Positions 21,556-25,615 of a stretch of 50,099 nt of DNA are shown here, in pieces. Source of the stretch: Elusimicrobiota bacterium (GTDB lineage: Bacteria > Elusimicrobiota > Endomicrobiia > Endomicrobiales > Endomicrobiaceae). Each line of letters starts with the position of its first letter. Position 1 is the first letter of the stretch. The notes beneath the pieces were generated by a model that saw only the letters and a list, made by a program, of their open reading frames with translations, did not search any database and was not told the origin of the DNA. The DNA is taken from NCBI GenBank assembly GCA_017528425.1, contig JAFXOV010000012.1, positions 1 to 50,099 of the forward strand, read 5' to 3'. Both the position numbers and the translations under genes were made by a program.

Positions 21556-22908
21556 ATGTTTAACGGAAAACAGAGAATACATTTTGTAGGTATAGGCGGT
21601 TCCGGTATGAGCGGTATTGCCGAAGTTGCATTAAACTTAGGTCATCAGGTTTCGGGTTCGGATATTAAAAAAACCGAAGTAACACAAAGATTAAAAGAGT
21701 TGGGCGCAAAAATATATATCGGACATAAAAAAGAAAATATAAAAAATGTTGATGTTGTTGTAACATCTACCGCTATTTCAAAAGATAACCCTGAAGTACA
21801 ACAGGCAATAAAAGAAAAAATAATTATTATACCGAGAATAGAAATGCTTGCCGAGCTTGCAAGATTAAAATATACAATTACCATTGCGGGGACTCACGGT
21901 AAAACGACAACAACTTCGATGACGTCAATGATATTGGATGAAGGCGGATTTGATCCGACAATAGTTATAGGCGGAAAATTAAAAAATTTAAAAACAAATG
22001 CACGTCTCGGTAAGGGTGAATACATGATAGCCGAAGCTGACGAATCCGACGGTTCTTTCTTAAAACTTTCGCCTGTATTAACGATAGTTACAAACATAGA
22101 TAACGACCATCTCGACTATTACGGTTCTATGGACAACTTAAAACAAGCATTCATAAAACATATAAACAGTCTTCCGTTTTACGGTTGTGCAATGGTTTGC
22201 ACCGACAGCCCTTTAGTTAAAGAAGTGTTACCTTATGCAACAAGAAAATATATCACTTACGGATTCAAAGGAAAACCCGATATAACAGCTACCGATATTA
22301 CCGTCGTTAACGGTAATACGGAATACACTGTTCTTTATAAAGGTAAAAAATTGGGTAAAGTGTTGTTAAAAGTTCCCGGAGAACATAATGTGTTAAATTC
22401 TCTTGCCGCAATAGGTATAGGATTACAGTTTGATATACCGTTTATAACGATAAAAAATGCACTTTTTAAATTCGGCGGAGTAGGAAGAAGACTTGAAGTT
22501 AAAGGTGAACAAAAGGGTATAACAGTTATCGATGATTACGGTCATCATCCTACCGAAATAAATGCAACTCTTTCGGCTTTAAAACATAACTATCCTCACA
22601 AAAGGTTAGTTACAATATTTCAACCGCACAGATATACAAGAACACAAAACTTGTATAAAGAATTCGGCAAAGCACTTAAAAAAGCGGATGTTGTTTATAT
22701 AATGGATATTTATGCAGCAAGCGAAAAACCTATCAAAGGTGTAACCGCGGATTTAATTGTGAATGCCGCGAAACAAAATAAATGTAATGTGCAAAAATTT
22801 GAGGATATAAACTCGGTTGCAAAAACATTGAAAGAAAACGATATTTTGTTAACGCTCGGAGCAGGGAATGTTTGGCAACAGGGTGAAGAATTATTAAAAA
22901 TATTATAA
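21556..22908 (+). CDS. murC: UDP-N-acetylmuramate--L-alanine ligase MurC
   Basis: 450 residues, standard MurC length. The N-terminal Rossmann domain has HFVGIGGSGMSGIAEV (9-24), the central ATP site is GTHGKTTTTSM near 114, followed by EADESDGSF and NIDNDHLDYYG. The C-terminal domain carries DDYGHHPTEI and FQPHRYTRT. It adds L-Ala to UDP-MurNAc in the cytoplasm, the first step of stem-peptide synthesis. It lies in a division and cell-wall cluster, separated from murB by one unknown gene and a terminator. Confidence 0.97.
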   Translation: MFNGKQRIHFVGIGGSGMSGIAEVALNLGHQVSGSDIKKTEVTQRLKELGAKIYIGHKKENIKNVDVVVTSTAISKDNPEVQQAIKEKIIIIPRIEMLAELARLKYTITIAGTHGKTTTTSMTSMILDEGGFDPTIVIGGKLKNLKTNARLGKGEYMIAEADESDGSFLKLSPVLTIVTNIDNDHLDYYGSMDNLKQAFIKHINSLPFYGCAMVCTDSPLVKEVLPYATRKYITYGFKGKPDITATDITVVNGNTEYTVLYKGKKLGKVLLKVPGEHNVLNSLAAIGIGLQFDIPFITIKNALFKFGGVGRRLEVKGEQKGITVIDDYGHHPTEINATLSALKHNYPHKRLVTIFQPHRYTRTQNLYKEFGKALKKADVVYIMDIYAASEKPIKGVTADLIVNAAKQNKCNVQKFEDINSVAKTLKENDILLTLGAGNVWQQGEELLKIL

Positions 22909-22927: not shown

Positions 22928-23629
22928 ATGATTAACTTTAAAAGTTTGGCAATTTTTGTAATAACGTTTTTTTTGATGGTTCCTGCGATTTTTGCAGGCG
23001 GTGAAATTATAACAAAAAGTCCATATGGTGAATATGTTTACGAAACTACGATTAAGGCATTGGTTGATAAGGGCGTTTCCGAAGAAATTAAACTTGTAAA
23101 TAAATCTTCGTATCCGTTAAAATTTATATCGTGTACGGTTAGAATTAACGGTAGAGATCACGATATGAGAGCTATACCGTTATTAAGGCTCGGAGTTACG
23201 GAAGGATTTGACGGCTTTTTTAAAGATGACATGACCAGAGAATTTTCGAAGTTTTTCGGAAAAGACGGAAGACTTACACATAAAAACAACAATTTTATCA
23301 AATTCACTTTTAAATTTATGGATCACGATGCGGATGTTGCCATAACCGATGTTTATGAGGATGACAAAGATATATGTTTTGTTGTTTCTGATGTTGCAAA
23401 AGATACCAATTCTATCGATGATAATGCTGTTAAGGATGAACAAGCTGCTGTTGTAACTACACCTGAAGTTACACCTCTTCCCGGGACAAAGATATCAGAA
23501 TCCAAACCGGAACCTGCTCCCGAACCGATAGCCGAATCCGTACCTAAACCTACAAGTGACGATACTATTGTTGTTATAGAAGGTAAAAGTTATTTGCTCC
23601 ACGATGGTAAAGCATATTTATTACAATAA
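22928..23629 (+). CDS. secreted protein of unknown function
   Basis: 233 residues with a signal peptide (hydrophobic 6-24, cleavage after IFA-GG). A folded N-terminal part (about 25-155) is followed by a Pro/Glu-rich linker (about 175-212, SKPEPAPEPIAESVPKP) and a short C-terminal motif GKSYLLHDGKAYLLQ in which two similar units (KSYLL / KAYLL) repeat. No family recognised. AGGAGG at 22918-22923 gives a strong ribosome site. It sits between murC and murB but ends in a terminator, so it shares the murC transcript. A periplasmic role beside cell-wall genes is only inferred. Confidence 0.75.
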   Translation: MINFKSLAIFVITFFLMVPAIFAGGEIITKSPYGEYVYETTIKALVDKGVSEEIKLVNKSSYPLKFISCTVRINGRDHDMRAIPLLRLGVTEGFDGFFKDDMTREFSKFFGKDGRLTHKNNNFIKFTFKFMDHDADVAITDVYEDDKDICFVVSDVAKDTNSIDDNAVKDEQAAVVTTPEVTPLPGTKISESKPEPAPEPIAESVPKPTSDDTIVVIEGKSYLLHDGKAYLLQ

Positions 23630-23644
23630 TTAAAAAATATTTAT

Positions 23645-23684
23645 AAAAGCACACTTGATATTAAATTAAGTGTGCTTTTTTTAT
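23645..23684 (+). terminator. rho-independent terminator
   Basis: AAAAGCACACTT (23645-23656) pairs perfectly with AAGTGTGCTTTT (23668-23679), with a T-rich tail. It divides the murC unit from the murB-ddl-ftsQAZ unit. Confidence 0.92.
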
Positions 23685-23747
23685 TTATTTTTATTAAAAA
23701 AATGGTAAAATATGAGAGTATAAAATCACAAGTTACGGAGACCTGTC

Positions 23748-24719
23748 ATAAAAACTTTTATAGAAAACTTTCTATCATCAATAAATTGTAATTATAAGCT
23801 GGGTGAACCGTTATCAAAACATACTACTCTTTGTATCGGCGGTAATGCCGATTTTTTTGTTGAAGTCGAAACGGAACAACAGTTAATATCTTTGCTGAAA
23901 TTTATAAAAGAAAACAATATAAACTTTTTTGTTATAGGCGGCGGATCGAACATTTTGTTTGGTGACGACGGTTTTAGAGGAATAGTAATAAAATTATCAT
24001 TAAATTCCACAAGTGAGTTTGGACGTATCGAAGGGTTTAAAACCGGAGATGTGGAAGCTGCACCAAACGAGATTGAAATAACAGCAAAAGACAGTGTTTC
24101 GAATACCGTAAGTGTTTGTTGCGGGGCGGCGGTAAGTTTGGCTTATTTGGCAATAAAAACCGCAGAACAGGGCTTAAGCGGGCTTGAACAAATTTCTGCA
24201 ATACCGGGAACAATCGGCGGTGCTGTGTTCGGTAATGCCGGCGTAACAAACTGTTCCGTATCCGACGTTGTTGATAAAATAGAAGTTATAGATTATTCAG
24301 GCAACAAAAAGGTTTTAACTAAGAAAGATATCAAATTTGAATACAGAAAAAGTGACTTACAAAGCAACATTATAACCAAGGTGTTTTTTATCTTGAAAAA
24401 AGCTGATAAAAATGATATTTTAAAGACGATTTCACAAGAGCTTAAGAGAAGAAAAAGCACACAGCCGCTTGGCACTAAAAATGCCGGTTGTGTATTCAAA
24501 AATCCGAAAGATGACAGTGCAGGTCGTCTGATAGACTCTTTAAAACTTAAATGTTACAGCGTTGGCGGCGTGGAAATATCCGATGTGCATGCAAATTTCT
24601 TTGTTAACAAGAACAACGGTTGTGCCAAAGATATGTTGAACTTAATTGAATTTGTAAAAGATGAAGTTTATAAAAAATATAACATAAAACTTGAAACGGA
24701 AATAAAGATAATAAAATGA
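23748..24719 (+). CDS. murB: UDP-N-acetylenolpyruvoylglucosamine reductase MurB, apparent ATA start
   Basis: 323 residues if started at ATA 23748. FAD enzyme that completes UDP-MurNAc. The family N-terminus LSKHTTLCIGGNADFFVEV (about 21-39) and the FAD loop VIGGGSNILFGDDGF (about 63-77) are present, then SGLEQISAIPGTIGGAVFGNAG and the type-I catalytic block QPLGTKNAGCVFKNP with SAGRLID. The first ATG/GTG/TTG in frame with a good upstream context is TTG 23892, which would remove the conserved N-terminus. The frame is open back to a stop at 23721-23723 and contains no ATG, GTG or TTG there. GGAG (23737-23740) sits 7 nt before ATA 23748, an ideal spacing. The end overlaps ddl by 4 nt. Confidence 0.88.
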   Translation: MKTFIENFLSSINCNYKLGEPLSKHTTLCIGGNADFFVEVETEQQLISLLKFIKENNINFFVIGGGSNILFGDDGFRGIVIKLSLNSTSEFGRIEGFKTGDVEAAPNEIEITAKDSVSNTVSVCCGAAVSLAYLAIKTAEQGLSGLEQISAIPGTIGGAVFGNAGVTNCSVSDVVDKIEVIDYSGNKKVLTKKDIKFEYRKSDLQSNIITKVFFILKKADKNDILKTISQELKRRKSTQPLGTKNAGCVFKNPKDDSAGRLIDSLKLKCYSVGGVEISDVHANFFVNKNNGCAKDMLNLIEFVKDEVYKKYNIKLETEIKIIK

Positions 24720-25615
24720 TAAATTTAAAAAATAAAAAAATAGGTGTGTTGTGCGGCGGAACGTCGTCGGAAAGAGAAATTTCTTTAATGTCGGGTAAAG
24801 CCGTTTATAATGCAATAAAAAAGTTAGGCTTAAAAGTTGTATTGATAGATGTAAATAAAAATGTAGCTCGGAAGTTAGTAAAAGAAAAAATAGATTTGGC
24901 ATACATAACTTTGCACGGTACTCCCGGTGAAGACGGAACAATTCAGGGTATGCTTGAAATTATGGGAATACCTTATACGGGCTGCGGAGTATTTTCCAGT
25001 TCTGCAACCATAGATAAAATAATATCAAAGAAAATGTTTGAATATGCAAAGATCCCTACAGCAAAATGGACGATAATAGAAAAGTTAAAACCGTTTGAAG
25101 AAATAGATTTTCCCGTAGTTGTAAAACCTGCATCACAGGGGTCTGCAATAGGAATATCGATAGTAAAAGATAAAAAGGAATTTGAAAAAGCAGTAAAACT
25201 TGCTTTTTCCTATGAAGACAGAATATTGGTGGAAAAATATATTAAGGGTATAGAAGTTACCGCAGGTGTATTAAACGGTAAAGCATTGCCTGTTATAGAA
25301 ATTGTGCCTAAAGGTAAATTTTATGATTTTAAATCGAAATATACCGTAGGGCAATCAAAGCATATTATTCCGGCAAGATTACCGGAAAAAGTATTGAAAA
25401 AAATACAAAATATCGCACTTAAAGTTTACGATGAGTTCAGATGTAACGGAACATGCAGAGTAGATATGATAGTAGATAAAAATAACGATATATATGTTTT
25501 GGAAGTAAACACTCTTCCGGGTATGACACAGACATCGTTATTCCCCGATGCGGCAAAAAGTATGGGTATGAGTTTTGAAGATTTAGTTTTGGAAATTTTA
25601 AAGTCGGCAAAATAA
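24716..25615 (+). CDS. ddl: D-alanine--D-alanine ligase
   Basis: 299 residues, ATP-grasp enzyme. It shows GGTSSEREISLMSG (N-terminal substrate site), LHGTPGEDGTIQGMLE, the serine loop PYTGCGVFSSSATIDK, VVKPASQGSAIGI for ATP binding and the Mg2+ site EVNTLPGMTQTS at the end. It makes D-Ala-D-Ala for the peptidoglycan stem. The short length fits DdlB-type enzymes. It overlaps murB by 4 nt (ATGA) and ftsQ begins 1 nt after it, as in many dcw clusters. Confidence 0.96.
   Translation: MINLKNKKIGVLCGGTSSEREISLMSGKAVYNAIKKLGLKVVLIDVNKNVARKLVKEKIDLAYITLHGTPGEDGTIQGMLEIMGIPYTGCGVFSSSATIDKIISKKMFEYAKIPTAKWTIIEKLKPFEEIDFPVVVKPASQGSAIGISIVKDKKEFEKAVKLAFSYEDRILVEKYIKGIEVTAGVLNGKALPVIEIVPKGKFYDFKSKYTVGQSKHIIPARLPEKVLKKIQNIALKVYDEFRCNGTCRVDMIVDKNNDIYVLEVNTLPGMTQTSLFPDAAKSMGMSFEDLVLEILKSAK

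Follow-up and report, generated by a model that had tools for sequence, protein, structure and literature searches.

A candidate AUA start codon of murB in an Elusimicrobiota bacterium and its AUU counterparts in Endomicrobiales

The murB gene of an uncultured Elusimicrobiota bacterium of the family Endomicrobiaceae, located on a 50,099-nucleotide stretch of DNA (contig JAFXOV010000012.1 of assembly GCA_017528425.1, positions 1 to 50,099; hereafter the window), appears to start with the very rare codon ATA at 23748, and the homologous codon is ATT, no less rare as a start, in most sampled genomes of the order Endomicrobiales. Judged from sequence comparison, the non-canonical start is very probably real. 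Conserved AUU/AUA starts are a known class, rarely documented beyond infC and a handful of genes, and murB joins it with an evolutionary cause that is unusual and can be read from the sequence, namely an overlap in which the codons of murC forbid AUG. An essential cell-wall gene appears to use an AUU/AUA start across most of a bacterial order, and gene callers restricted to ATG, GTG and TTG would predict MurB proteins that are too short or too long in these genomes. The prediction is directly testable, as the Endomicrobiaceae include a cultured species, Endomicrobium proavitum.

The murB start in the window

23748..23750, + strand: murB start codon ATA; homologous codon ATT in ~52 Endomicrobiales, ATG or GTG in 20 others and in outgroups
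23737..23740, + strand: Shine-Dalgarno sequence GGAG, read from the sequence; spacing kept in relatives, including those without the murC overlap
23748..24719, + strand: murB, UDP-N-acetylmuramate dehydrogenase, 323 amino acids, stop codon included in the coordinates; identified by NF010480, Pfam and structures

The murB frame reads NHKLRRPV-I(ATA 23748)-KTFIENFLSSINCNYKLGEPLSKHTTLCIGGNADFFVEV. The first-pass annotation of this DNA had described it as containing no ATG, GTG or TTG before the ATA, which was confirmed, and as open back to 23721, which was not: an in-frame TAA occupies 23721-23723, so that the open frame begins at 23724. The first ATG, GTG or TTG in frame is TTG 23892. The GGAG is separated from the ATA by a spacer of 7 nucleotides (23741-23747), as had been proposed, and the comparison with close relatives suggested at that stage, now made, bears the proposal out: the nearest relatives have ATT at the homologous codon with equal spacing, and others and the outgroups have ATG or GTG.

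The product scores 298.3 bits against the NCBIfam equivalog NF010480 (cut-off 259), which places it within MurB, and residue 7 of the ATA-started protein falls on position 7 of the model. Solved MurB structures match the product, as do the Pfam domains MurB_C and FAD_binding_4; the FAD_binding_4 match begins at residue 35, before TTG 23892. Among 40 large non-nested open frames surveyed in the window, murB is the only one with no canonical codon close to its 5' end; its first one is codon 56 and has no Shine-Dalgarno sequence, whereas the other frames have one within the first ~24 codons.

The homologous codon across Endomicrobiales

Codons were compared in 76 Endomicrobiales genomes with a readable murB N-terminus (the window genome being G000), plus class and phylum outgroups, and were numbered backwards from the conserved histidine of SKHTT. 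ATT occupies the homologous codon in ~52 of the 76 (a strict Shine-Dalgarno scan gave 48, and G021, G031, G060 and G076 were assigned by eye), and the window genome has ATA. ATG or GTG stands at -24, or 1-2 codons away, in 20 genomes as well as in the outgroups; these canonical codons mark the position as the true start. Three genomes are ambiguous (G011, G062, and G023, which has GTT). Both states occur at the same position within genus g10, ATG in G028, G033 and G036 and ATT in G019.

The murB start has the sequence features of the AUU/AUA class. No in-frame ATG, GTG or TTG preserves the conserved N-terminus in the window, nor in 17 further Endomicrobiales genomes; in 18 genomes (families f1, f3, f4, f5 and f6) the open murB frame has no canonical codon upstream, and AUU or AUA is therefore the sole candidate at the homologous place. 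The Shine-Dalgarno sequence is well spaced in the window and in 48 ATT relatives, where it reads AGGAG, GGGAG, AGGGG or GGAG at a distance of nearly always exactly 7 nucleotides, and the codon is kept in non-canonical form between species. By the same scan applied across the order, the Shine-Dalgarno sequence is present in 48 of 52 ATT starts and missing in 17 of 20 ATG/GTG starts, a distribution that fits a strong Shine-Dalgarno sequence compensating for a weak codon, with the caveat that in overlapping genomes the murC codons also provide the Shine-Dalgarno sequence.

Overlap with murC

21556..22908, + strand: murC, with Pfam Mur ligase domains; in most relatives (46) the murB start falls within its C-terminal codons

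In 46 genomes murB starts within the 3' end of murC (typically DVWKKGEELLTLI), which ends 16-17 nucleotides past the ATT. The murC codons GGA GAA GAG TTA TTA provide both the GGAG and, out of frame, the ATT, and an ATG in this register would require TGN in place of a murC leucine. The ATT might be regarded as a mere by-product of the murC codons, but this proved insufficient: the Leu-Leu-type pair at the murB start yields ATT in 45 of the 46 overlapping genomes, whereas eight adjacent [LIV]-Leu pairs elsewhere in murC do so in 4-62%. Even genomes with 53-57% G+C in murC and murB still have TTA here, although TTA and TTG make up only 8-29% of their leucine codons. Multiplying the codon probabilities of each genus naively gives ~1e-14, which was not taken as a p-value because the genera are related. 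On these sequence counts, the ATT is conserved well past the coding needs of murC. The overlap, present in most of the order, is probably ancestral. A single overlapping genome, G023, has changed ATT to GTT; an ATG lies seven codons upstream, possibly a move to a canonical start.

Lineages in which the overlap is broken

22928..23629, + strand: inserted gene between murC and murB, function unassigned; same arrangement in G002, G003 and G006

One gene separates murC from murB in the window genome and in G002, G003 and G006, other insertions are found in G009 and G030, and in G013 a different gene precedes murB. All seven of these genomes, freed from the murC constraint, retain a GGAG-like site with ATT or ATA; in G013 the sole upstream ATG overlaps a -10-like element. 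G005 and G010, of the same genus as the window genome, have ATG at the homologous position and no Shine-Dalgarno sequence by the same scan. Overlap loss thus amounts to a natural experiment, in which seven lineages retain AUU or AUA with a Shine-Dalgarno sequence and two have AUG without one.

The inserted gene gave no significant Pfam match, and homologues of it are found at other places in G001, G008 and G013. Its N-terminus resembles a signal peptide, and four species carry it at this murC-murB site.

Leader and downstream genes

23645..23679, + strand: terminator-like hairpin (15 pairs, then a T tract) past the inserted gene and ahead of murB
23703..23711, + strand: putative extended -10 element TGGTAAAAT, read from the sequence by inference
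24716-25615: ddl, downstream of murB
After ddl: ftsQ-like, ftsA-like and ftsZ-like genes, named from sequence only

The putative -10 element suggests that murB may have its own promoter and a short leader. A TAAAAT is found at a similar place upstream of murB in G002, G006 and G013; a two-hexamer promoter scan did not call TGGTAAAAT at 23703-23711. A 29-codon open reading frame (ORF; 23702-23791) overlaps the murB start out of frame, and a 3-codon ORF lies at 23712-23723; both are probably due to chance.

Alternative explanations

The alternative with the most in its favour, unlikely as it is, holds that the overlapping relatives start murB at an NTG codon seven codons upstream (-31), so that AUU would not be general and the window would be a decayed case. 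About 30 overlapping genomes have TTG, ATG or GTG at -31 or -32, in some cases preceded by GGAG at a distance of 4 nucleotides, and G023, whose ATT is replaced by GTT, has an ATG at -31. The NTG derives, however, from a murC Val-Trp, its first base being the third base of the Val or Ile codon (A 15, T 23, C 7, G 1; n=46), with no excess of ATG (15/46; the median share of A at the third position of L/I/V columns is 33%). Other genomes have CTG or nothing at this place, the Trp is sometimes lost, and 18 genomes have no such codon at all; canonical starts elsewhere lie at -24, and the conservation of ATT beyond what murC coding requires also speaks against an upstream start.

That a true ATG was misread as ATA in sequencing or assembly, as the first-pass annotation had thought simpler, would need a single-base change to restore a normal start, and G005 and G010 do have ATG here. 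The nearest relatives G002, G003 and G006, and also G013, nevertheless have ATT, each in a separate assembly; the strong Shine-Dalgarno sequence that accompanies ATT or ATA is missing in G005 and G010; and infC also starts with ATA in the same genome and genus. An ATG-to-ATA error is therefore very unlikely. Slightly less probable still is that ribosomes translating a short upstream ORF reach the murB frame by frameshifting or by coupled reinitiation, so that an in-frame start would be unneeded or would depend on coupling. ATG 23702 opens the 29-codon out-of-frame ORF, which ends just past the murB start, ATG 23712 opens the 3-codon one, and the short distance from the ATT to the end of murC in overlapping relatives could favour reinitiation; but ATG 23702 coincides in part with the putative -10 element and may be missing from the transcript, the terminator-like hairpin lies between murB and the preceding gene, and no counterpart was seen on inspection, with no further test, of the G002, G003 and G006 leaders.

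Initiation at TTG 23892, giving a shortened protein, is the least credible of the alternatives. It is the first in-frame canonical codon, but it has no Shine-Dalgarno sequence and would delete SKHTTLCIGGNADFF, which is present in solved MurB proteins and is the best conserved stretch between sister genomes; the earlier statement that this start would remove the family N-terminus thus holds. The ratio of non-synonymous to synonymous differences (pN/pS) for codons 25-48, which would be lost, is 0.08-0.14 against G001, G002, G003, G006 and G008, compared with 0.23-0.29 elsewhere in murB; G009, which is more distant, is the one genome that gives the reverse order. A start at TTG 23892 was rejected on this strongest constraint.

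Several points, together with the NTG codons near -31, weigh against the non-canonical start or its exact placement. The first ~24 codons of murB are weakly constrained (pN/pS 0.40-0.73), and because of this the exact start codon is assigned from the alignment and the Shine-Dalgarno spacing. Codon 23748 of the window genome may be ATT instead of ATA. The assembly contains no 16S rRNA gene from which an anti-Shine-Dalgarno sequence could be read.

Proposed mechanism

We propose that translation of murB would begin at AUA 23748, positioned by the GGAG 7 nucleotides upstream, and that the AUA is presumably decoded by the initiator fMet-tRNA. In overlapping genomes the last codons of murC (Gly-Glu-Glu-Leu-Leu, GGAGAAGAxTTATTA) would supply both the Shine-Dalgarno sequence and the ATT; no ATG is possible in register without losing a murC leucine, and AUU would therefore have become the standing murB start. 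In the window lineage a gene would then have been inserted between murC and murB, the Shine-Dalgarno sequence and non-AUG start being kept (AUA here, AUU in its sisters).

An AUU or AUA start would lower MurB output and be discriminated against by translation initiation factor 3 (IF3), as at infC. By this analogy the murB start is likely weak and probably sensitive to IF3; throttled synthesis with IF3 involvement is plausible, and any regulatory role or benefit of the start is something that we infer. A more far-reaching and doubtful possibility is that Endomicrobiales murB has been kept, like infC, on an IF3-discriminated AUU/AUA start that ties the supply of peptidoglycan precursors to IF3 and ribosome status, having first been locked by the overlap and then selected for weak, regulated initiation.

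Comparison with infC and other non-AUG starts

In Escherichia coli, raised IF3 inhibits initiation at non-canonical codons (PMC2268962). In Staphylococcus aureus, infC and ccpN start with AUA and cvfC1 with AUU, each with an extended Shine-Dalgarno sequence, and non-canonical starts gave ~10-30% of AUG output in reporters (PMC13009471). Borrelia pncA starts with AUU, which is overlooked in databases, so that the protein listed there is truncated (PMC13398362).

The infC gene, which starts with AUU in E. coli and with AUA in S. aureus, resembles murB in its rare AUU/AUA-class start, strong Shine-Dalgarno sequence and conservation between species. It differs in being autoregulated by its own product, whereas no role of MurB in initiation is known and the murB start is tied to the murC overlap; murB thus matches the IF3-regulated infC type in codon class only. 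The cvfC1 and ccpN starts of S. aureus are likewise conserved, non-canonical and directed by strong Shine-Dalgarno sequences, but they are experimentally mapped and belong to other genes in another phylum, and no overlap is mentioned for them in the section consulted (PMC13009471). E. coli pcnB (AUU) and Borrelia pncA are also single genes with an AUU start, but they are reported in single organisms, whereas the murB start is conserved across an order. Among the papers searched, none links murB with non-AUG starts, and those naming both Endomicrobium and murB concern other subjects by title and abstract.

In the window genome (G000:C64) and eight others of its genus, infC, located by tblastn, starts with ATA, preceded by sites resembling GAGGGG or GAGGAGG; the open frame contains no earlier canonical codon apart from a distant TTG in G009. 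On this sequence comparison, AUA is an accepted start in the genus, at the very gene on which IF3 is known to exert feedback in E. coli. Other members of the order appear to start infC with ATA, GTA or GTC, of which GTA and GTC would be very unusual.
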